Shown here in pieces: positions 557 through 30,643 of a stretch of 31,374 nucleotides of DNA. Position 1 is the stretch's first letter. Every line of letters starts with the position of its first letter. The notes below the pieces were generated by a model. It saw only the letters and a list, made by a program, of their open reading frames with translations, did not search any database and was not told where the DNA came from. Source of the stretch: a virus; the IMG/VR virus record IMGVR_UViG_3300029309_000202, positions 1-31,374 of that record; one strand, given 5' to 3'. The position numbers were made by a program, and so were the translations under genes.

Positions 557-594
557 TTGACCCCCATGATATGCGATGGTAGCCTGCTCGTCCA
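557..594. promoter_or_regulatory. divergent promoter region between the minus-strand helicase and the plus-strand operon
   Basis: On the minus strand TGGACG (594-589) and TATCAT (571-566) are 17 bp apart and fit a sigma70 promoter for the helicase. On the plus strand TTGACC (557-562) has only a weak partner, TAGCCT at 580, 17 bp away. The same stretch holds TATGCGAT at 570-577, the octamer that recurs upstream of genes at 14553, 15548 and 16335. Both calls rest on pattern matching only. Confidence 0.4.
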
Positions 595-628
595 GCCCTC
601 AAAAAAAGGGCCGAAACAAGGAGAGAAG

Positions 629-7087: not shown

Positions 7088-7423
7088 ATGAAATCTTTAG
7101 TTTTTATTGTTACCTTGCTGGCTTCTTTTGGAATATCGGCCCAGACCGTCATCTACTACGAAGATGGCTCTGTTTACACTGTCCAGCCGAATGAAAAAGT
7201 TTTTGTTGAAACAACCAGTGAGTTGTACACGAAAAAAGATTATTACAACGGTGACGTTTATTTTGAACAAGCGGCTCCCAGCGATAAAGTTGACTACGAG
7301 GAGCAACCCTATGATGGGATGGAAAAAGGTTCAGAAGAGTGGTGTGAAGAGTACGCGCCATTTTTGTTCGCAAACGGTTACACGTTTGATGATCAGATTT
7401 ACGTTCGATATTGCGGGGACTGA
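7088..7423 (+). CDS. small exported protein, unknown
   Basis: A 111-residue protein with a clear signal peptide: K near the N-terminus, a hydrophobic core (LVFIVTLLASFG) and a likely signal peptidase cut after ISA at about residue 18. The mature part is acidic and rich in Tyr and Glu, with two cysteines (in EEWCEEY and RYCGD) that could form a disulfide in the periplasm. The ATG at 7088 has a strong CGGAGG 8 bases upstream and its own promoter. An exported early protein could act in superinfection exclusion or envelope modification, but no family is recognised and this is a guess from location only. Confidence 0.7.
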   Translation: MKSLVFIVTLLASFGISAQTVIYYEDGSVYTVQPNEKVFVETTSELYTKKDYYNGDVYFEQAAPSDKVDYEEQPYDGMEKGSEEWCEEYAPFLFANGYTFDDQIYVRYCGD

Positions 7424-7848
7424 TGAAGCCTGACTTCCGGTATGCGGCGTCCGTAGTGCGGTGCGTGGACGGCGATACAGTGACTCTGGACGTTGATTGT
7501 GGATTTTCTATCTTCACGCGCCAAACTACGCGGTTGATGGGGTTGGACACAGCGGAGACAAGAATGGTCCGGGGCGGATCTCAAGATCTCAAAAGCCTTG
7601 GAAAACTGGCCAAACAGTTTGTTCAAGATGCATTGCCCGTGGGTAAGGAAGTCACGATCAAGACTCACAAGGAAGGTAAGTTCGGGCGTATCTTGGCCGA
7701 AATCTACATCAACGGTGGGGAAGACAGCCTCAACGAACTGCTTTTAAAAAAGCAGTTAGCGGTAAAATATTACGGTCAATCTAAAAGTCTGATTTTAAAG
7801 CAACACAAAGTCTGTATTGCCCACCATAAAAAAATGGGAAATATCTAG
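7423..7848 (+). CDS. SNase-type (micrococcal nuclease-like) nuclease
   Basis: A 141-residue thermonuclease-fold protein. The active-site pattern of staphylococcal nuclease is preserved: DGDT (D16, D18), RLMGLDTAET (R37, D42, E45) and GKFGRILAEI (R89). No signal peptide is visible, so it probably acts in the cytoplasm, for example on host DNA or RNA or in DNA turnover. It starts in a TGATG overlap with the exported protein and lies under the same promoter. A TTG at 7411 in frame could add four residues but the ATG is preferred. Confidence 0.85.
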   Translation: MKPDFRYAASVVRCVDGDTVTLDVDCGFSIFTRQTTRLMGLDTAETRMVRGGSQDLKSLGKLAKQFVQDALPVGKEVTIKTHKEGKFGRILAEIYINGGEDSLNELLLKKQLAVKYYGQSKSLILKQHKVCIAHHKKMGNI

Positions 7849-7857
7849 GAGAATCAA

Positions 7858-8088
7858 ATGGATACGACGAAATGGAAATCCACTTTGTTACCTCGGGAAG
7901 TGTACGAGGAACTGGTGGTCATTGCCCGTGTCGAAGGCCGCACGATCAGCGGACAACTGCGCTACATCCACGAACAGTGGAAGATGCAGAACCTATCCAA
8001 TCGTGATCAGGAATACATCTCTGAACAAGTGGACACGTTCAAGAAAGAGAACGATACCCCATTGAGTTCCAAGAGCTTTAGCATATGA
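7858..8088 (+). CDS. ribbon-helix-helix (Arc/CopG-like) DNA-binding protein
   Basis: A 76-residue protein whose first half fits the ribbon-helix-helix pattern: a beta strand (KWKSTLLP), a helix (REVYEELVVIARVEG), a turn (RTIS) and a second helix (GQLRYIHEQWK). Such proteins dimerise and repress transcription at short operators, so this is the only candidate transcription regulator seen in the window and a possible partner for the operator-like repeats found elsewhere. AGGAG precedes the ATG at good spacing. The assignment is by pattern only; a non-regulatory small protein is possible. Confidence 0.6.
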   Translation: MDTTKWKSTLLPREVYEELVVIARVEGRTISGQLRYIHEQWKMQNLSNRDQEYISEQVDTFKKENDTPLSSKSFSI

Positions 8089-8258: not shown

Positions 8259-8418
8259 AAACGCTACGCACCATTTGGACGACGTACTGATCTCCCTACA
8301 AGCCGGGCAACAGACCGCCAACCGACTAAAAAAGCCTGTGGCAATTCAAAAAGATTTGTCCGTTGTGGTATTAGAAAACGCAACGATGGAAGTTCTTGAA
8401 ATTATCCGACCCGAGTGA
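8230..8418 (+). CDS. small conserved-looking protein, unknown
   Basis: A 62-residue ORF. The ATG at 8230 is chosen for the GGGAG four bases upstream; earlier in-frame ATG at 8200 lies inside the upstream gene, and ATGs at 8239 and 8251 are alternatives. The protein is a helix (MVRNATHHLDDVLISLQAG) followed by a basic and then hydrophobic segment (IQKDLSVVVLENATMEVLEII). It is the last gene before a terminator. No family recognised. Confidence 0.45.
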   Translation: MQKMLRDMVRNATHHLDDVLISLQAGQQTANRLKKPVAIQKDLSVVVLENATMEVLEIIRPE

Positions 8419-8504
8419 TATTTTAAAGATGGCTCCTAAAAGCCTGCTAAACGTTGTAGGGATCTCTTAGTTTTCTCCCAAAGTGAACGATGGCCCTGAT
8501 CCCG

Positions 8505-8533
8505 ACCCGGCCCCCTAGAGCCGGGTTTTTTTT
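8505..8533 (+). terminator. intrinsic terminator closing the 7.1-8.4 kb transcript
   Basis: A stem ACCCGGC/GCCGGGT with an 8-base loop is followed by eight T. It ends the unit that starts at the 7037 promoter. The rest of the 8419-8560 gap shows no gene; TATGCT at 8550 lies six bases before the next ATG and could be a -10 box for a leaderless transcript, but no convincing -35 is seen. Confidence 0.8.
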
Positions 8534-8560: not shown

Positions 8561-8908
8561 ATGAGGCTCATCGTACAACGCCACAGGAGAACTCTCATCC
8601 GGTATAACCGTTTTTATTACAAGCCTTTACCCGATTACTTGACCGTGGCCGAGAGTGATGTAGAGGGTTTGGGTATTTTTGCTTTGGAAGACATTGAAGC
8701 AGACATTGATCTTGGCGAAACCCATATCAAAGTCCCCATGATCCAAGGCTACATACGAACCCCGTTAGGCGGATTTGTTAATCATTCTGAAGAACCAAAT
8801 TGTGTCTTGATGCTGACTCAAGATTGGGACGATTATCGCGTCTATAATCTTGTGACTACACAAGACATCCAATCCGGTGAAGAACTTACGTTGAATTATG
8901 ACAATTAG
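8561..8908 (+). CDS. SET-domain protein (putative lysine methyltransferase)
   Basis: A 115-residue protein made almost entirely of a minimal SET domain: an N-terminal GLGIFALEDI segment (36-45), the pseudoknot motif NHSEEPNC (74-81) and GEELTLNY (106-113) with the catalytic-type tyrosine. SET enzymes use S-adenosylmethionine to methylate lysine. The pre-SET region is very short and there is no post-SET cysteine cluster. Free-standing SET proteins occur in some bacteria and phages with unknown substrates; a host nucleoid, ribosomal or GroEL protein could be modified, but that is speculation. No ribosome-binding site precedes the ATG, so start choice or leaderless translation is uncertain. Confidence 0.8.
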   Translation: MRLIVQRHRRTLIRYNRFYYKPLPDYLTVAESDVEGLGIFALEDIEADIDLGETHIKVPMIQGYIRTPLGGFVNHSEEPNCVLMLTQDWDDYRVYNLVTTQDIQSGEELTLNYDN

Positions 8909-9980: not shown

Positions 9981-10067
9981 ATGCATTTTGATGACATCCC
10001 TGAACACCTGTTTGCCCTCGGCATCGTCGCCGTCCTAGCCCTTTACTACGGTTTTTTTGTCCCTTGA
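9981..10067 (+). CDS. 28-residue membrane miniprotein (tentative)
   Basis: A short ORF with an acidic N-terminus (MHFDDIPEHL) and one hydrophobic helix (FALGIVAVLALYYGFFV). No convincing ribosome-binding site is seen. It is listed because it continues the run of single-helix proteins before it; it could be chance. Confidence 0.25.
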   Translation: MHFDDIPEHLFALGIVAVLALYYGFFVP

Positions 10068-10093
10068 CGTATGGGAGTAAAACGCGGTAACCT
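10064..10093 (+). promoter_or_regulatory. possible sigma70 promoter upstream of the 10128 gene
   Basis: TTGACG (10064-10069) and TAACCT (10088-10093) are 18 bp apart. A parS-like palindrome (10099-10114) sits where the transcript would start, an operator-like arrangement. The -10 is weak. Confidence 0.35.
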
Positions 10094-10098
10094 CCTTT

Positions 10099-10114
10099 TG
10101 TTCTACGTGGAACC
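10099..10114. repeat. parS-like palindrome, copy 1
   Basis: TGTTCTACGTGGAACC differs at one inner base and the last base from the perfect palindrome at 27119-27136, and 15 of its bases equal the reverse complement of the copy at 30075-30090. It lies between a possible promoter and the GTG at 10128. Confidence 0.55.
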
Positions 10115-10127
10115 AAGGGAGAAAACC

Positions 10128-12349: not shown

Positions 12350-12961
12350 GTGGCTAAGAACAGATACGCCAATGTTTTGGACACCAAAGCGGCGGCATTG
12401 CCGGAAGCGAAGCGTCAGCAAACGAACCGACCCCCGCTAGCAGAAAAGCGCCTGAATCGTAGGCAGGAACTGTTTGTACGAGAGCTTGTAGCAAAAGACG
12501 GGCAGATCACCATGCGAGAGGCGGCGATCAATGCGGGCTATCCCGAGAAGTCTGCCCATGTCCGAGCCTCTGAATTAACTAACCCCCGTATTTCTCCTCA
12601 TGTGTGTAGAGCCATCCGAGAGTATCGGCAGGAGCTTGACCAGAAATACGGCGTGGAATACCAGCGGCACCTCCGTGATCTACAAGTCATTCGGGATGCG
12701 GCTTTGGAGAGCGGAGCGTTTAGTGCGGCAGTGCAGGCTGAATACCGCAGGGGTCAGGCGCAGGGTGACATCTACGTCAACAAGACGGAGATTCGGCATG
12801 GCACGATTGACCAGATGAGCAAGGAAGAGGTCATGAAAGCTTTGAACGAACTGAAGCAGACCTACGCTCCCTTGACACACGACGCTGGAGCAGAGGAAGC
12901 TGGAAACAGGAAGCGGGCGCGTGAACGTCTCGCAGAAGAGGTACAAGATGTTCCTGATTGA
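12350..12961 (+). CDS. terS: terminase small subunit
   Basis: A 203-residue protein starting with GTG after GGAGG. Residues 35-85 form a helix-turn-helix of the terminase small subunit type: LNRRQELFVRELVAKDGQ, then EAAINAGYPEKSAHVRASEL and NPRISPHV. A central helical oligomerisation part and a charged C-terminal tail follow. The subunit recognises the packaging site on phage DNA and passes it to the large subunit. Unusually, the large subunit gene lies 4.3 kb downstream beyond a block of accessory genes. Confidence 0.85.
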   Translation: MAKNRYANVLDTKAAALPEAKRQQTNRPPLAEKRLNRRQELFVRELVAKDGQITMREAAINAGYPEKSAHVRASELTNPRISPHVCRAIREYRQELDQKYGVEYQRHLRDLQVIRDAALESGAFSAAVQAEYRRGQAQGDIYVNKTEIRHGTIDQMSKEEVMKALNELKQTYAPLTHDAGAEEAGNRKRARERLAEEVQDVPD

Positions 12962-13133: not shown

Positions 13134-13536
13134 GAAACAACGTGAAGCCAGCTTTTGGCAGGCCCTAAAGAAAGCCATGAGGGACAACTTCCCTGATTGG
13201 TCAGCCACCCGTTTAGAATCCAGAGCCACGTTGGGTGTGCCGGACGTTTTGATTATGGACAGTCAGGGCAACTGGCACATGGTTGAACTAAAAACCACAT
13301 CCAACATGAGCGTCAATATGTCTCCTCACCAAGTCGCTTTCCTGACTAAACACGCGAGGGGCAGTGTCTGGATAGCCGTGAAGCTTACCAGTGACACCGG
13401 CTCGGAGGTCTTTCTTTATCGTGGTGAGCGGGCCGTGGACGTAAAGCTAGATGGGCTGCGAGCCAAGCCAGACAAACACTTTAGCTATCCCGTTTCTTAC
13501 CGAGAGGTCTTGACCACTATTGCATCTATGCGCTGA
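13096..13536 (+). CDS. VRR-NUC-type PD-(D/E)XK nuclease
   Basis: A 146-residue protein with the core of a VRR-NUC/Holliday-junction-resolvase-like nuclease: an acidic residue E41, VPD (D50), and ELK (E64, K66), followed by SPHQVAFLTKH, which matches the usual helix after the core. Phage relatives cut branched DNA or assist recombination and packaging, a fitting neighbour for terminase. Its ATG lies in the 3' end of the preceding small gene. Exact substrate unknown. Confidence 0.75.
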   Translation: MKNDILLPTVKNKKQREASFWQALKKAMRDNFPDWSATRLESRATLGVPDVLIMDSQGNWHMVELKTTSNMSVNMSPHQVAFLTKHARGSVWIAVKLTSDTGSEVFLYRGERAVDVKLDGLRAKPDKHFSYPVSYREVLTTIASMR

Positions 13537-13585
13537 CCCGCATATAGTGTCGGTGGGCAATGTTGCCCGATGTTGGGAGAAAACT
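13520..13585 (+). promoter_or_regulatory. leader A: promoter, hairpin and TTGGGAG ribosome-binding stretch
   Basis: TTGCAT (13520) and TATAGT (13543) are 17 bp apart. A hairpin GGGCAA/TTGCCC lies at 13555-13568 and TTGGGAGAAAACT precedes the ATG at 13586. It is a diverged member of the leader family seen at 14501, 15494 and 16280. Confidence 0.5.
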
Positions 13586-13765
13586 ATGAACGCAGAATTG
13601 CTGACAAAAACGAACGAAGAATTGCTGACAAAAATGTTTCGGTGTCTGCTGAAGAACATAAAAAATCTGACGGGCAATGAAAATGCTTACGATGATGAAG
13701 TGGGCGACAGCGTATCTTTGGAAGACTGTGAAGCCATGCTTTTACGTTTGGAGGATAAGTCATGA
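13586..13765 (+). CDS. small acidic protein, unknown
   Basis: A 59-residue protein whose start is set by the TTGGGAG stretch of leader A; the frame is open upstream into the nuclease gene but without signals. It has a short internal repeat at the N-terminus (AELLTKTNEELLTKM) and an acidic C-terminus. Its stop overlaps the next start (ATGA). No family recognised. Confidence 0.5.
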   Translation: MNAELLTKTNEELLTKMFRCLLKNIKNLTGNENAYDDEVGDSVSLEDCEAMLLRLEDKS

Positions 13766-14220
13766 GCTTGATTACATTACAAGGTTGTCAATGGATTATG
13801 AAAACCGTTAATCAGGCGCTACCGGCAAACCGTGAGCGTATTGATTTGAAACAGGCCACGGCATACGCGGAAGACGCGGAGTATCAAATGTCGCTGGGGA
13901 ATCCCCCTTGCTTCGAAATGAAGTCTTGGGACACCGCCTCTAGACATACTCAGGAGTTTGAGGTTCCACAGCGATATGTTGATTGGGAGAAAACTATGAG
14001 CAACGTAACAGACGAGGTTTTTGAAAAACTTTTATATGTGGAGCGCGGTATTCGCACTCGGATAAACGACGAGTATCGCGAGCTACAGAAGAGGGCCGAC
14101 GCTCTTCTCGCCAGCCAAGACGATTTGCAGAGCGAGATGAGGGCCATTCATTGGAGACATCAAGAGGGACTGGTAGAAGGTTTGGAGTTAGCACTGTCAA
14201 TCATGAAGGAGCGAGCATGA
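13762..14220 (+). CDS. hypothetical protein, possibly two genes fused (internal start at 13996)
   Basis: The 152-residue ORF opens with MSLITL, a start shared with the next gene. Inside it, at 13983-13999, is TTGGGAGAAAACTATGA, identical over 17 bases to the ribosome-binding stretch and start of the gene at 13586. An in-frame ATG at 13996 would give a separate 74-residue helical protein (MSNVTDEVFEKLLYVERG onward). So the ORF is either one gene with an internal start or a fusion of two units after loss of a stop. No known family. Confidence 0.5.
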   Translation: MSLITLQGCQWIMKTVNQALPANRERIDLKQATAYAEDAEYQMSLGNPPCFEMKSWDTASRHTQEFEVPQRYVDWEKTMSNVTDEVFEKLLYVERGIRTRINDEYRELQKRADALLASQDDLQSEMRAIHWRHQEGLVEGLELALSIMKERA

Positions 14221-14468
14221 GCCTTATCACATTGTGGACCGTGGAGTCTGGAGAAAAGTGCCGTTGGTTCGTGGCGGAAGACGAAGCCAGACGGTTTGCC
14301 CGAGACACGTGGTTTAAGGAAGATGATGGTGTGCCTTTCGTCAGCCACAAGGTCATTTGGGACTCGGAGGAATTGTGCGAGATTCTGAACCACATCGAAG
14401 GCTTCACCGAGGGCCGTGAGCCGCAGGTGGGAGCTTTCCCATCGATTGATTTTAAGCGGTTGATCTGA
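14217..14468 (+). CDS. small hypothetical protein (MSLITL start)
   Basis: An 83-residue protein starting in an ATGA overlap and beginning MSLITLW, like the gene at 13762. It is acidic with several Trp residues (KCRWFVAEDEA, DTWFKEDDG). The matching first six codons suggest that 5' gene ends were duplicated in this block. Function unknown. Confidence 0.5.
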   Translation: MSLITLWTVESGEKCRWFVAEDEARRFARDTWFKEDDGVPFVSHKVIWDSEELCEILNHIEGFTEGREPQVGAFPSIDFKRLI

Positions 14469-14500
14469 ATTGTTTTCTTTCCTTGATCCGTAGGGCGCGG

Positions 14501-14552
14501 TATGCGATAGTCCGTCTGCGGCAATCCTGCCGCGAGCTTTGGGAGAAAAATT
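14501..14552 (+). promoter_or_regulatory. leader B of the repeated leader family
   Basis: TATGCGATAG at 14501-14510, a perfect hairpin GCGGCA/TGCCGC with loop ATCC at 14518-14533, then TTTGGGAGAAAAATT before ATG 14553. Layout matches leaders C and D. The upstream sequence (TTGATC at 14483) is not at a normal -35 distance. Confidence 0.6.
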
Positions 14553-15440
14553 ATGAGTGTTTATCAAAATCTAATGGGACAAATCGAAGATGCGGGTTTG
14601 TTGTTTAACGTCACAAGCCACTCTATGTTGGCCCGTTTAGAAAAAAACGAAGCCACCGGCACGTTTTCCACTTGTCCGATCCCAAATAAGCGCGCGCTGA
14701 TTAATGCTAAAAGCGGCGAAGTTATTAGCGTCGTTTCTGACCGGTACAAAGTAGTCACTAACGAGCAAATTTTTAGCAGTTTTTGCAAGTCCATAGAAAA
14801 CAGTGGCGTGGACGCCGAGGGTGCGCGAGTTAACGTTTTGCAAACTGAAACCGGAGGTCGCGCCATGGTGGACTTTGTTTTTCCTGCTCACCAGTTGCAG
14901 GTTGCTGGGGATGACAGTAGCACTGCACTGCAAATGTGCGCGCTAAACTCTTTTGATGGCAGTCACCGCTACACGGTAAAGGCGGGCGGCTTGCGGATGA
15001 AATGTTTAAACGGGCAAATTCTGGGGGACGTTGTAGGAAGCTATTCCTCCACACATACCGCCAGCTTAGATGTTCAGGCGAGTGCTGATTACATCGTTCA
15101 GATGATCACTGATTTCAATAAGGCGGGGGATTACTGGTCCCGTATGATGCAAACCCCAGTAACGTGGGAAGTAGCGGATGACGTCATCAAAATCTTTTTA
15201 GATTTACCCGAAGATTTTCACACCGGTGAAAAATTTAATGCGCGTTATGAGCACTGTGAGACGTTAGTCGGGCGCTACTTTAAGGAAATGGGGCCGAATC
15301 TTTATGCGCTATATAATGCGCTTACTGATTATGTCAGCCATCCCACTAGGCAATCGCAGAACCGTACCGTTAAAACCAATCGCGAGCGTTCTAAGGTTCA
15401 GTCTATTTTGAACAAATGCGAGGCGTATATCGGCGTTTAA
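14553..15440 (+). CDS. DUF932-family protein
   Basis: A 295-residue protein of the DUF932 phage/plasmid family, shown by the segment SGEVISVVSDRYKVVTNEQI (residues ~54-73), later VDFVFPAHQL and the LRMKCLNGQI region, and the usual C-terminal helical part. The family is widespread on phages and plasmids; its biochemical role is not established. It has its own leader (B) and is followed by a strong terminator, so it is a one-gene transcription unit. Confidence 0.8.
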   Translation: MSVYQNLMGQIEDAGLLFNVTSHSMLARLEKNEATGTFSTCPIPNKRALINAKSGEVISVVSDRYKVVTNEQIFSSFCKSIENSGVDAEGARVNVLQTETGGRAMVDFVFPAHQLQVAGDDSSTALQMCALNSFDGSHRYTVKAGGLRMKCLNGQILGDVVGSYSSTHTASLDVQASADYIVQMITDFNKAGDYWSRMMQTPVTWEVADDVIKIFLDLPEDFHTGEKFNARYEHCETLVGRYFKEMGPNLYALYNALTDYVSHPTRQSQNRTVKTNRERSKVQSILNKCEAYIGV

Positions 15441-15461
15441 ATCTACACTGCCCAAAGTGTG

Positions 15462-15486
15462 CCCCGCCATGGCGGGGTTTTTTTTT
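15462..15486 (+). terminator. intrinsic terminator after DUF932 gene (part of repeated cassette)
   Basis: CCCCGCC/GGCGGGG stem with AT at the centre followed by nine T. It is nearly identical to the terminator at 16248. Confidence 0.88.
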
Positions 15487-15542
15487 GGCCGCGTATGCGA
15501 TACCCTGGGCGGGCCGCGATTGGCGGCGACACTTTGGGAATT
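15462..15542 (+). repeat. terminator-leader cassette, copy C
   Basis: In order: terminator, T tract, GGCCGCGTATGCGATACCC, a GC hairpin (GCCGC/GCGGC, 15513-15527), then GCGACACTTTGGGAATT before ATG 15548. The copy at 16248-16329 matches it nearly base for base except for the hairpin itself, where sequence differs but pairing is kept. Confidence 0.8.
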
Positions 15543-15547
15543 TAAAA

Positions 15548-16240
15548 ATGCAATTACTTGATACGCGGGGCGCGAACCCCAAACTGAAAAAAACGGGCAA
15601 GGCGGCCCCGTTCCGCTATGCGGGGCTATCGCTTTATCCGGACGCGAAATTGTGCCCCGGATCGAAGGCGGCGGGATGCATGGCGGAGTGCCTTTCTGAG
15701 CAAGGCCGCGGGCGGTTCGATAACGTGCGAGAGGCGCGCCAGCGTAAGGCGGCATACTTGCATAATGATCGGGCGGGGTTTCTCGAGCAATTGCACCGAG
15801 AGCTAACAAACTTCACAAAGCTTTGTCAGCGCACCGGCGAGCGTGGCGCGGTCCGGCTTAATGTTCTTTCTGACGTTAAATGGGAGCGGTACGGTATACC
15901 GCAAGCGCATCCGGAGCTTTTGTTTGTCGACTATTCAAAGGTTGCGGCGAGACTTGGAAAAACCCCCGAGAACTACAAGCTAATTTTCAGCTATAGCGGG
16001 CGGCCCCAGTACCGCAACCAAAACCGGCGGGCATTCCAAACCGACGCCCCCGTGGCGGTAGTGTTCCGCGGCGGGTTTCCGCGGATGTTTCGCGGGCGGC
16101 CCGTTATCGATGGGGATCGGGACGATATCGCGAACGCATTCGCAAATGGGCAAATCGTCGGTCTGACTCCGAAAGGATCAGCGCGGCGGGATCGCACCGG
16201 TTTTGTAGTGGATAACCCCGATTTGATAGGGACCGACTGA
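15548..16240 (+). CDS. Gp88-family phage protein
   Basis: A 230-residue protein resembling the family of mycobacteriophage gene product 88. Landmarks are LSLYPDAKLCPGSKAAGC near the N-terminus with CMAEC, then GRGRFDNV, ARQRKAAYLHND, RLNVLSDVKWE and a C-terminal VGLTPKGSARRDRTGFVVD. The clustered cysteines suggest a metal or iron-sulfur site. Function is unknown. The ATG at 15548 is set by leader C. The gene is richer in GCG, CGG and GGG than its neighbours, which suggests separate acquisition. Confidence 0.75.
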   Translation: MQLLDTRGANPKLKKTGKAAPFRYAGLSLYPDAKLCPGSKAAGCMAECLSEQGRGRFDNVREARQRKAAYLHNDRAGFLEQLHRELTNFTKLCQRTGERGAVRLNVLSDVKWERYGIPQAHPELLFVDYSKVAARLGKTPENYKLIFSYSGRPQYRNQNRRAFQTDAPVAVVFRGGFPRMFRGRPVIDGDRDDIANAFANGQIVGLTPKGSARRDRTGFVVDNPDLIGTD

Positions 16241-16247
16241 AACCAGA

Positions 16248-16272
16248 CCCCGCCACGGCGGGGTTTTTTTTT
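16248..16272 (+). terminator. intrinsic terminator after Gp88-like gene
   Basis: CCCCGCC/GGCGGGG stem with AC centre followed by nine T, the twin of the one at 15462. Confidence 0.88.
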
Positions 16273-16329
16273 GGCCGCGTATGCGATACCCTGCCGGTGC
16301 GGTAATGATGCCGCGACACTTTGGGAATT
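16248..16329 (+). repeat. terminator-leader cassette, copy D
   Basis: Same order as copy C, with TATGCGATAC at 16280-16289, hairpin GCGGTA/TGCCGC (16299-16314, one G-U pair) and CGACACTTTGGGAATT, leading to ATG 16335. The hairpin arms differ from copy C while pairing is kept, which points to selection on RNA structure. Confidence 0.8.
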
Positions 16330-16334
16330 ATCTT

Positions 16335-16580
16335 ATGTACAACAAATTCGAAAATGAACTGCAAACCGTGGGCGTAGCGCAGACTCGTTGTTACGAGCTA
16401 ACCCGTGCCGCCGATCGTATCCACACGGCTGTTTGCGCGCTAGATATTGAGAACCGCAAAACGCTTGCAAAGCATTATCCCGCATTCCTTCAATTGGCCG
16501 AGGAATTCGCAAGCTTTGACGAGACTTTGCAGTCTGACATGGGCGTGGCGTTTTCTCGCGCGTTTGACCTAAACTCATGA
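16335..16580 (+). CDS. small hypothetical protein behind leader D
   Basis: An 81-residue helical protein (LQTVGVAQTRCYELTRAADR, LAEEFASFDETLQSD). The start is set by leader D. The next gene starts in its stop (ATGA). No family recognised. Confidence 0.55.
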   Translation: MYNKFENELQTVGVAQTRCYELTRAADRIHTAVCALDIENRKTLAKHYPAFLQLAEEFASFDETLQSDMGVAFSRAFDLNS

Positions 16581-16735: not shown

Positions 16736-16752
16736 TGCCCGCTGCCGAACTG

Positions 16753-16777
16753 AACCCCGCCCCGTGCGGGGTTTTTT
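16753..16777 (+). terminator. intrinsic terminator closing the inter-terminase block
   Basis: AACCCCGC/GCGGGG(TT) stem with CCCGT loop followed by six T. It separates the accessory block from terL. Confidence 0.85.
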
Positions 16778-17214
16778 GTGCCCGTAACAACTGGCGCGGG
16801 GTCCGCGCCCCGTGAGCCGCCCGAAACGTACCGAGGGCCGCGCCCCGTGGGCGGTGGGCCGCGTATCCGGTTTCCTGCCCTGCCGCGTATCCGGTCTAGG
16901 CTTCTAACTTCCTTAAATTCCTATTTAAGTCAGTTAAAGCGTGGGACCCAGTCCGCGATTGCGTCAAACGGTTAGTGAGTACTTACTTCGGATTGCGCCG
17001 CGCGCGCCGCCGCCGTGGCCCGGCAAGCGGCATCAAGGTGCAGGTTTTTCACGAACAATACTGTGAGAAAACCATATGAATTTTTTAGAAAAAAACCGTA
17101 AGCCCCGGACCGTGGTCCCTGAAACGTGTTACGGTTCAAAAAAAACGCGTATAGGAGTCCCAGAGCCTCAAAAATTTTGCAAAAAATTGAGAGCTACCGG
17201 ATCGCATATATGTT
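16778..17214. other. noncoding control region upstream of terL
   Basis: No supported gene is present. It holds two copies of CCGCGCCCCGTG (16803, 16838), two copies of CCGCGTATCCGGT (16859-16871, 16883-16895; the first eight bases match the leader element of cassettes C and D), a perfect hairpin CTTAAAT/ATTTAAG (16912-16929), an operator-like 14-mer (16974-16987), a GC-only stretch (about 16995-17025) and a palindrome GGACC-GT-GGTCC (about 17106-17117). A 47-codon ORF at 17076-17219 lacks a ribosome-binding site and is probably chance. The region could be a packaging or control site. Confidence 0.55.
16974..16987. repeat. operator-like 14-mer, copy 1
   Basis: AGTGAGTACTTACT, an imperfect palindrome (one mismatch between half-sites AGTGAGT and ACTTACT). 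An identical copy lies at 17224-17237. Confidence 0.7.
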
Positions 17215-17237
17215 TATAATTAAAGTGAGTACTTACT
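17215..17237 (+). promoter_or_regulatory. terL promoter -10 box with overlapping operator-like 14-mer
   Basis: A perfect TATAAT at 17215-17220 precedes AGTGAGTACTTACT at 17224-17237, which covers the expected transcription start. TTGAGA at 17188 is 21 bp from the -10, too far for a classic -35. A protein bound here would block terL transcription, so this is a candidate repressor site. Confidence 0.5.
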
Positions 17238-17257
17238 AACCCCGAGAGCTAGTGTTT

Positions 17258-18736
17258 ATGCGGAATGATGGTTCTAGTTTTGAGTCCATAGAGGAAGCTG
17301 AAGAGAAGATCCTGAAGCTTGAGTATCGTTTGGCGCAGATTGAGCAGGTTGAGTCGTGTCAGGAGGATTATTTGAGCTTTGTCCGGACGATGTGGCCCGA
17401 GTTCATTGCGGGTCGGCACCACAAGATTATGGCGGAGAAGCTTGAAAGGGTGGCAAAGGGCGAGTTGAAGCGGTTGATCATCAACATGCCGCCGCGTCAC
17501 ACGAAGTCTGAGTTTGCAAGTTTCCTGTTTCCAGCTTGGATGATCGGTAAAAACCCTGCGATGAAGATTATTCAGGCTACGCACACCACGGAGCTTGCGG
17601 TCAACTTTGGACGGAAGATCAAGAATCTGCTGGAGAGGGATGATTATCTTGAAATTTTTCCCGATGCGGCGCTTTCTGCTGACTCAAAGGCGTCCGGCAG
17701 GTGGGACACGGCCCGTGGTGGTATGTATTACGGCGTGGGTGTGGGGTCAAACTTGGCGGGACGTGGTGGTGATTTGATCATTATTGACGATCCGCACTCT
17801 GAGCAGACGGCGATGTCGTTGAGTGGCTTTGATGACGCGTGGGATTGGTACACGGGTGGTCCTCGACAGCGTCTGCAACCGGGTGGAGCCATCATTGTGG
17901 TGATGACGCGGTGGTCGGAGAAGGATTTGACCGGTCAATTGATTCGGGCGCAGGGTCGGGATGAGTTAGCGGACACGTGGGAGGTCATTGAGTTCCCGAT
18001 GGAGATGCCGTCGGGGCAACCTTTGTGGCCGGAGTTCTGGTCTTTTGAGGAAATGCAGGCCGTGAAGGGGTCAATTCCTCTGCCGAAGTGGAATGCACAG
18101 TATCAGCAGAACCCGACGGGTGATGAGAACGCGATTATCAAGCGAGAATGGTGGAATGTGTGGGATAAACAGCAGATTCCGCAGTTGCAGTACGTGATTC
18201 AAAGCTATGACACGGCGTTTTCCAAGAATACGCGGGCGGATTACAGTGCCATTACGACTTGGGGCGTCTTTTATCCCGAGGAGGGGCAGGTTTCGGCGTT
18301 GATTTTGCTGGATGCGAAGAAGGGGCGCTGGGATTTTCCTGAATTGAAGCAAGTTGCGATGGATTCTTATAAATTTTGGGAGCCTGAGACGGTTATTATT
18401 GAAGCGAAGGCGAGTGGTATGCCTTTGACCCACGAATTGCGGAATATGGGCATTCCTGTGGTAAACTTTACACCTAGTCGTGGCAACGATAAGGTGTCAC
18501 GGGTGCATAGTGTGTCGCCACTTTTTGAGAGTGGGATGATTTGGGCACCGGATGAGTCTTGGGCGCATGATGTGATAGAAGAATGTGCGGCATTCCCTAA
18601 TGGGGAGTATGATGACTTGGTGGATAGCACCACGCAGGCCTTGATGCGTTATCGGCAGGGCAATTTCGTTCAGTTGCCGTCGGATTATTGGGAAGATGAG
18701 TCTACCAATCTTCGGCCAATGCAATATTACGGGTAA
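17258..18736 (+). CDS. terL: terminase large subunit
   Basis: A 492-residue packaging motor. The ATPase has a Walker A variant PPRHTKS (78-84), Walker B DLIIIDDP (172-179) and the coupling motif VVMTRWSEKDL. The nuclease half has SYDTAFSKNTRADYS with the first metal-binding Asp, IIEAKASG and a final YDDLVDS. This is the Terminase_6-like arrangement. It pumps DNA through the portal and cuts it. ATG at 17258 is nine bases after GAGAG; GTG at 17252 is an alternative. It has its own promoter region and is unusually distant from terS. Confidence 0.95.
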   Translation: MRNDGSSFESIEEAEEKILKLEYRLAQIEQVESCQEDYLSFVRTMWPEFIAGRHHKIMAEKLERVAKGELKRLIINMPPRHTKSEFASFLFPAWMIGKNPAMKIIQATHTTELAVNFGRKIKNLLERDDYLEIFPDAALSADSKASGRWDTARGGMYYGVGVGSNLAGRGGDLIIIDDPHSEQTAMSLSGFDDAWDWYTGGPRQRLQPGGAIIVVMTRWSEKDLTGQLIRAQGRDELADTWEVIEFPMEMPSGQPLWPEFWSFEEMQAVKGSIPLPKWNAQYQQNPTGDENAIIKREWWNVWDKQQIPQLQYVIQSYDTAFSKNTRADYSAITTWGVFYPEEGQVSALILLDAKKGRWDFPELKQVAMDSYKFWEPETVIIEAKASGMPLTHELRNMGIPVVNFTPSRGNDKVSRVHSVSPLFESGMIWAPDESWAHDVIEECAAFPNGEYDDLVDSTTQALMRYRQGNFVQLPSDYWEDESTNLRPMQYYG

Positions 18737-30090: not shown

Positions 30091-30160
30091 TTTATGTTAG
30101 TATAAATTTTTCCTGACAGTCTCATACTGAGGCTGACACTGGCCACGACAGGAGAACCTC

Positions 30161-30643
30161 ATGGCTAATACTACGTTTAACGGTCCCGTCCGTTCTGAAA
30201 ACGGTTTTCAAGATATAACCAAAAACTCCACTACCGGTGCTGTAACTAGCACAATGACGCTTTCTACTTATGAAACGACCATTACGGTAGCGGATGGTGC
30301 CACCACGGGAAAAGAGTCTGCGATTGGTATCCCAGATAACTTCATCCCTATGGGCGTCACAATCGCTGTTACTACAGCCGCCGCGAACGCCGTAAATCTT
30401 CAAGATATTGGCACAGACGCTGATACTGACGGTTTTGTTGATGGTATCTCAGCCGCTGTGAATTCGACCGGATTTAAAGGGTTTTTCCCCTGTAATGGTG
30501 TCCTTGGAATGTCGGGTGGTACAACCACTGCGGCTACGGGCACAGCAGATGAGGTTGAGCTTGTTGTTTCGGGTGATCCCGGTGGCGACACGGTCATTGT
30601 CTTGAAGTTTTTTGGAATATCCAGCACTTCTGACGCATCCTAA
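30161..30643 (+). CDS. virion-type protein, beta-rich
   Basis: A 160-residue Thr/Ala/Gly/Val-rich protein (MANTTFNGPVRSENGFQ start) without charged clusters. AGGAG lies 7 bases before the ATG. The opening resembles a family of phage proteins found after capsid genes; head fibre or decoration are possible. No motif decides. Confidence 0.6.
   Translation: MANTTFNGPVRSENGFQDITKNSTTGAVTSTMTLSTYETTITVADGATTGKESAIGIPDNFIPMGVTIAVTTAAANAVNLQDIGTDADTDGFVDGISAAVNSTGFKGFFPCNGVLGMSGGTTTAATGTADEVELVVSGDPGGDTVIVLKFFGISSTSDAS

Follow-up and report, generated by a model that had tools for sequence, protein, structure and literature searches.

Between the small and large terminase genes of a 31-kb IMG/VR contig (IMGVR_UViG_3300029309_000202, 31,374 nucleotides (nt), hereafter the window) lies an array of one-gene accessory cassettes introduced by leaders of common design, and comparison with related contigs makes it probable, in our judgement, that these cassettes form a co-regulated set, most likely repressed in trans by an antisense small RNA (sRNA) that the phage itself would encode. 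By architecture the cassettes are morons. In the proposed plan, the terminator of the previous gene would be followed by a promoter with the 9-mer TATGCGATA over its -10, a 5' GC hairpin, a Shine-Dalgarno (SD) block CACTTTGGGAG and the ATG, and each cassette would begin and end its own transcription. The genes behind the leaders are a short open reading frame (ORF) at 13586, a DUF932 gene at 14553, a GP88 gene at 15548 and an ORF of 81 amino acids (aa) at 16335, and the region is laid out as follows.

12350-12961: small terminase gene (PF03592)
13520..13583, plus strand: leader A, with -35 TTGCAT (13520-13525), a 17-bp spacer, -10 TATAGT (13543-13548), hairpin GGGCAA/TTGCCC (13555-13568) beginning at the inferred +1, and SD TTGGGAGAAAA (13573-13583); gene ATG 13586
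13983..14220, plus strand: extra start with the same SD TTGGGAGAAAACTATG, ATG 13996, 75-codon ORF; promoter and hairpin unassigned
14483..14552, plus strand: leader B, with -35 TTGATC (14483-14488), element 14501-14509, -10 GATAGT (14506-14511), hairpin 14518-14533 and SD CTTTGGGAG (14537-14545); DUF932 gene ATG 14553
15451..15486, plus strand: terminator before cassette C, whose 5' flank CCCAAAGTG (15451-15459) is the complement of the downstream SD
15494..15547, plus strand: leader C, with element 15494-15502, hairpin GCCGC/GCGGC (15513-15527) and SD CTTTGGGA (15532-15539); GP88 ATG 15548
16246..16272, plus strand: terminator before cassette D, its T-run overlying the -35 position of the next promoter
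16280..16334, plus strand: leader D, with element 16280-16288, hairpin GCGGTA/TGCCGC (16299-16314) and SD CTTTGGGA (16319-16326); 81-aa gene ATG 16335
17252-18736: large terminase gene

The leader pattern is real and not a product of chance. Related IMG/VR contigs totalling about 1.6 Mb have the ribosome-binding motif TTTGG[GA] preceded by TATGCGATA, in either orientation, at 159 distinct places, against a mean of 0.3 and a maximum of 3 for permuted 9-mers, and the spacing between element and SD varies little (mostly 36-40 nt). The exact 9-mer occurs three times in the window (0.13 expected) and 24 times in six pooled related contigs of 168 kb (0.7 expected), where it is the top-ranked over-represented 9-mer. 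Searching the window alone for the 8-mer with one mismatch gave 20 matches for 20 expected, not above chance, and a literature search for the 9-mer string showed no relevant paper among the first ten of 43 that contain it. An earlier note on this DNA had placed the exact element at 14501, 15494 and 16280 and a diverged TATAGT at 13543, had described four pairing hairpins and TTGGGA motifs, and had called the terminators upstream of cassettes C and D near identical; all of this can be read directly from the sequence. The same note proposed that related phages should carry the element with hairpin and SD, and they do, at fixed spacing.

When 28 non-redundant leaders were profiled, TATGCGATA was near invariant and a T-run appeared at -18 to -11. 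Splitting the leaders by terminator showed that this T-run arises because upstream terminators cover the -35 position: behind a terminator, its T-run ends at -10 or -8, overlying the -35 position, while leaders lacking a terminator T-run have TTG at exactly -18 in 30 of 47 cases (12 of 22 non-redundant), other offsets giving 0-3. This geometry marks the leaders as predicted sigma70-type promoters with an extended -10 and a 17-bp spacer to GATAnT, such that each cassette, like a moron, would have a promoter of its own. The element overlaps the -10, and the promoter is larger than the element, with -35 TTGnnn, a 17-bp spacer and -10 GATAnT or TATAGT. Leader A fits the same geometry without the 9-mer (TTGCAT-17-TATAGT), and leaders of relatives that lack the 9-mer keep TTGCAT-17-TAATAT before the hairpin (L112 2208; G004 13557).

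The hairpin begins 15-19 nt past the start of the element, at the putative +1, and in most leaders 3-5 nt separate its end from the SD block. Among 34 distinct hairpin cores, 170 of 170 cells were paired and all five pairs showed changes on both sides, with a covariation score of 0.589 compared with 0.193 after shuffling; the covariance analysis that the earlier note had suggested was therefore borne out for every hairpin pair. The arms have diverged into 38 distinct arm pairs next to an unchanging SD and element, and their G-U wobbles indicate an RNA structure, for which reason a DNA cruciform was dropped as the function of the hairpin. A 5'-terminal hairpin protects mRNA in E. coli (PMC3997798). 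By analogy, a cassette mRNA would open with its hairpin, which may protect the transcript and, in predicted folds, would keep the SD single-stranded.

Gene exchange between relatives supports the modular character of the array. In an order map of 36 contigs, the interval between the terminase genes holds varying sets and orders of single genes from about 25 families, nearly all with a leader of their own. Where the window has the order DUF932-GP88-81-aa gene, G002 has two extra cassettes between GP88 and the 81-aa gene, which are thus present or absent between the same neighbours; G005 carries other genes after GP88. Across the contigs, the DUF932 slot is occupied by two different families. 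A GC hairpin with a T-run, the cassettes' own terminator, lies upstream of most leaders, although not of every gene. Morons, for example those of lambdoid phages, are lone genes that sit among conserved phage genes and bring their own promoter and terminator, and they are normally independent of each other. The proposal that single genes are inserted here as modular cassettes held up, since units of one gene with its terminator and promoter come and go, or change order, from one relative to the next. This argues against a simple recent duplication, which was also dropped on account of the diverged hairpin arms and the many gene families. Several reverse-strand "leaders" picked up by automatic listing (families F7, F27 and F30) proved to be artefacts of antisense CCCAAAG copies.

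The SD block is conserved well past the SD core, and searching for its complement beside terminators led to a predicted sRNA upstream of the array.

8396..8424, plus strand: predicted sRNA promoter, TTGAAA - 17 bp - TATTTT
8431..8533, plus strand: predicted trans-acting sRNA of about 103 nt, ending in a terminator with T8; seed TTTTCTCCCAAAGTG at 8471-8485 in the loop of the helix GGGATC (8459-8464)/GATCCC (8498-8503)

The loop of the predicted sRNA complements the conserved SD block CACTTTGGGAG exactly; the seed TTTTCTCCCAAAGTG is the exact reverse complement of CACTTTGGGAGAAAA, and the window sRNA carries CTCCCAAAG, for which the counterpart variant is CTCCAAAG. The conserved sRNA element lies about 0.6-0.9 kb after a gene for a ribbon-helix-helix (RHH) protein. 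In 21 aligned versions, the 11-nt seed is near invariant within otherwise diverged sequence (mean column identity 55%), and a best-stem search picked 17 different stems flanking it (e.g. GGGATTA/TGATCCC, GGGTTG/CAACCC, GGATTC/GAATCC and GATTCAT/ATGAATC). The seed core is predicted to be unpaired with a probability of 0.97-0.99 over five bases while its flanks are mostly paired, thereby exposing a seed complementary to several mRNAs. Sequences of the form TTGnnn - 16 to 18 bp - TAnnnT precede 38 of 43 matched loci, the misses being L218, L328 and three DUF932 3' ends; all other sRNA loci have it, and the element would thus possess both a promoter of its own and an intrinsic terminator, as expected of a trans-acting antisense sRNA. 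Among the window starts, leader B forms the strongest predicted duplex with the sRNA (-23.1 kcal/mol), and the SD at ATG 13996 offers an 11-nt complement to the seed, as read from the sequence. In the proposed mechanism, the sRNA, transcribed from its own promoter, would pair with the SD of every cassette mRNA, most likely blocking ribosome binding, and one RNA would set all cassettes; repression as the direction of control, and its timing, are what we infer from this pairing. The cassettes had been described as independent units. They do appear to have their own transcription start and stop, but because their common SD complements the predicted phage-encoded sRNA they are better seen as a co-regulated set than as fully independent.

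Seed and SD vary in step. Wherever a contig contained the two, the seed CTCCCAAAGTG pairs with leaders carrying CTTTGGGA or CTTTGGGG, and CTCCAAAGTG pairs with CTTTGGAG. Distant genera provided an independent test of this co-change: the leaders there have TCAACTACGGAGAA or near versions of it, and about 400 nt after the RHH gene both G008 and G011 show a single strong element, bounded by a terminator, that contains the complementary seed TTCTCCGTAGTTGA. A search that started from no given sequence, and looked downstream of the RHH gene for words with complements repeated ahead of start codons, found the seed again in eight genomes (G050, G051, G002, G005, G029, G008, G011 and L048). When start regions were scanned, a complement of at least 9 nt was found at 4-8 starts per genome, compared with 0.1-0.4 for shuffled seeds, and the best sRNA duplexes were mainly those of cassette genes. 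As with promoter geometry, hairpin covariation and gene exchange, it is comparison between genomes that brings out this complementarity and co-change, pointing to a seed that co-varies with its targets. Near the RHH gene of L353 (1573) and L354 (2859), a different hairpin, ACTGACTATCTCCAAAGCGCAGTCAGT, has a loop resembling an SD complement; leaders matching it were not found in these two short contigs.

Several observations weigh against an sRNA acting in trans. By itself, the predicted sRNA has no exceptional stability (z -1.72), and RNAalifold on a MAFFT alignment recovered the terminator stem only, because stem spacing varies. Chimeric sRNA halves folded nearly as well in 26-30% of cases; with controls only moderately worse, the covariation of the seed-presenting helix is suggestive and not decisive. 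The -35 TTGAAA of the sRNA promoter falls inside a coding sequence, which may be why it is conserved. The co-change of CTTTGGAG and CTCCAAAG is confined to one lineage, and G052 has mixed SDs. An Rfam scan of the sRNA gave no match at gathering score; a sub-threshold match to RF02278 (Betaproteobacteria toxic sRNA) over seed and terminator (22.1 bits for a gathering score of 50, E 0.013) is likely due to a shared CUCC motif plus the terminator.

We considered whether the cassettes could be plain mobile promoter-terminator units without trans control, recombination-homogenised repeats whose SD is kept by descent. Terminator-promoter-hairpin units and gene shuffling are indeed present, and recombining copies could keep the SD uniform in any one genome. 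However, the hairpin arms have diverged in those same leaders in which SD and element are unchanged, and the SD complement is separately conserved in a terminator-bounded element at another place in the genome and changes with the SD, also between genera, so that we regard this explanation as unlikely. Somewhat less likely still is that the antisense element is left over from inverted leaders or works in cis only, CCCAAAGTG beside terminators sequestering the SD in read-through RNA. SD sequestration in read-through transcripts is known for T4 genes e and soc (reviewed in PMC3014915), and CCCAAAGTG flanks the terminator after the DUF932-slot gene, just upstream of the next leader, and changes with the next SD. 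In the predicted read-through fold of cassette C, CCCAAAGUG pairs with CACUUUGGG in one 9-bp helix, while the shorter own transcript would leave the SD free, and the pairing is retained in changed-SD lineages (L005 and L122). By contrast, the main element at 8431-8533 has no downstream cassette, lies kilobases away and has its own conserved promoter, and in G008 and G011 the only strong complement linked to a terminator follows the RHH gene. A cis layer may nevertheless coexist with repression in trans, the complement copy after the DUF932-slot gene sequestering the next SD in read-through RNA. The copy at 15451-15486 and its equivalents could represent such cis sequestration or a second sRNA.

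Regarding the 9-mer, it is rather doubtful, in our view, that TATGCGATA is merely an extended -10 (TRTGn-GATAnT) with no regulator bound. It is possible to read the whole 9-mer as TATG + C + GATA, with a correctly spaced -35, and alleles without it use TAATAT at the same place. However, in further leaders and in distant relatives, TATGCGATA can stand in reverse orientation, the -10 then starting at +7 and not at +5, or can follow a TTGAC -35 after 1-3 bp, a separate -10 lying downstream (such register and orientation variants were seen in L042, L054, L064, L187, L297 and L309). Abutting inverted pairs occur in L174 and L199, and the exact 9-mer stands 27 nt before the RHH start codon in L353 and L354. 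Several registers and both orientations within core promoters are as expected of a repressor site, and TATGCGATA is probably an operator overlying the promoter. A small GC hairpin beside a conserved short motif also recalls the hairpin promoters for phage RNA polymerase of the N4 type; here, however, the hairpin lies downstream (3') of a sigma70-spaced promoter and has the G-U wobbles expected of RNA, and no RNA polymerase match was found among the window genes scanned, a scan covering only part of a complete genome's genes. This origin of the hairpin is very improbable and was dropped.

A candidate for the protein acting at this probable operator is encoded upstream of the sRNA.

7858..8088, plus strand: Arc/CopG-like RHH protein of 76 aa, candidate regulator at TATGCGATA

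It matches PF07878 with E 5.8e-5, slightly below the Pfam curated cut-off, and its best PDB profile match is pArc (E 0.016). The gene is kept in most long contigs with the 9-mer and is absent from the fragments G003 and G006. That this protein binds TATGCGATA is our working hypothesis, and its link to the operator is weakened because some genomes bear the RHH gene and have no 9-mer (G007, G033, G034, G040 and G041). The same carriers contradict a rule that the RHH beta-strand KWKS implies the 9-mer, and a single-sequence AlphaFold model of the protein, with a predicted local distance difference test score of 58, was not used. In G007 (loci L358-L360), words around CCACGTAGTAAGAGCGCC are enriched, with several 9-mers at eight copies, possibly representing another repeated regulatory element. 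At the sRNA promoter, the exact 9-mer occurs in L048 (TATCGCATA) and the one-base variant TATCCCATA in G008 and G011; with the same or a nearly identical operator there in some genera, the two layers would form a circuit. We propose only tentatively a plug-in regulon, in which any gene acquired in the standard leader would fall under both an Arc-like repressor at TATGCGATA and the SD-targeting sRNA, whose seed would have co-evolved across genera. Genes for a SET-domain protein (8561-8908, PF00856) and a staphylococcal-nuclease-like protein (7411-7848, PF00565) adjoin the RHH gene and the sRNA.

One further leader and one candidate leader lie outside the terminase interval.

570..628, plus strand: replication-operon leader, TATGCGATg, hairpin GCCCTC-loop-GGGC, without the TTTGGGA motif; ATG 629
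10064..10127, plus strand: candidate further leader, TTGACG - 18 bp - TAACCT, parS-like hairpin, SD AAGGGAGAAAA; GTG start 10128

The claim that the element recurs before the replication operon is correct for the exact 8-mer and the hairpin; the ninth base differs and TTTGGGA is absent, and relatives have the exact 9-mer in this slot (L012 560). The candidate leader before GTG 10128, which the earlier note had missed together with the fifth start carrying the common SD (ATG 13996), gives the second-best sRNA duplex in the window, with a 10-nt complement. Its parS-like palindrome TGTTCCACGTGGAACA (about 10098-10116) is strongly enriched in the relatives G002, G005, L121, L142, L293 and L363, with the 10-mer ACGTGGAACA found 24 times in related contigs against 0.32 expected, and at times replaces the leader hairpin.

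The carriers of these cassettes are a group of uncultured, mostly marine phages whose close relatives are known from metagenomes only. For the replication and packaging genes, the matches were to Pam3-type families and others outside the T4 group, and the window encodes a Pam3 gp33-like (629-1204, PF23984) and a Pam3 gp34-like protein (1428-1907, PF23977), both of families from Pseudanabaena cyanophage Pam3. In cultured phages, similarity was found at the terminase level only, no RHH homologue was found, and GP88 relatives were below 60% identity. With 18 fixed bases and a gap of variable length, exact leader patterns matched bacterial genomes (257 Gb) at 43 scattered places, no more than expected by chance, so that neither a prophage nor a host came to light. 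Before the large terminase gene, about 0.5 kb (16736-17251) has no assigned gene and contains a repeated GTGAGTACTTACT motif and GC-rich repeats, and in the structural gene region an Rfam match to RF03012 Mu-gpT-DE RNA was detected (30111-30163, plus strand; 64.8 bits, E 4.6e-13).

The closest likeness among known systems is to the start-associated and extended start-associated sequences (SAS/ESAS) of Cluster K mycobacteriophages, in which a short sequence extending beyond the SD precedes many small non-structural genes, part of the set having an upstream SigA-like promoter that overlaps an inverted repeat proposed to bind an unknown repressor; the factor recognising SAS was left open (PMC3203893; PMC11373665). 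Here, sequence and host group differ, the start-associated sequence being CACTTTGGGAG and not the 13-bp GGGATAGGAGCCC consensus, an mRNA hairpin stands between promoter and SD, terminators are mostly present, and a complementary sRNA is predicted. The PeSLs (promoter early stem-loops) of T4-type phages are likewise composite promoter and stem-loop units mediating small-gene shuffling; as described through PMC4503421, such a unit comprises a promoter and a stem-loop/terminator, and a shared sRNA target site is unmentioned in that description. The non-T4 replication and packaging genes set the present phages apart from this group. Unlike morons in general, the cassettes share a leader, an operator-like site and an sRNA target. 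RNAs complementary to phage mRNAs are represented by c4 of P1/P7, sar of P22 and OOP of lambda, of which c4 pairs near the ribosome-binding site from RNA loops (PMC12197685). These have a single target each (ant or cII), whereas here one predicted RNA matches the common SD of many unrelated genes, and the seed and terminator match to RF02278 falls far below the threshold of that family. To our knowledge, within the open-licence literature, no phage sRNA aimed at the shared SD of an exchangeable gene set has been described.

How phages take up new accessory genes and still keep their programme undisturbed is an open question, and morons are usually treated as self-contained. If the proposed regulation is true, a standard leader that subjects incoming genes to a single sRNA, and perhaps to one operator, would offer a simple solution. 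It also hints at a possible recognition factor for SAS-like start-associated sequences, the role of which is called unclear in the Cluster K papers, and the rule relating seed to SD may be used for seeking similar sRNAs in other uncultured phages.

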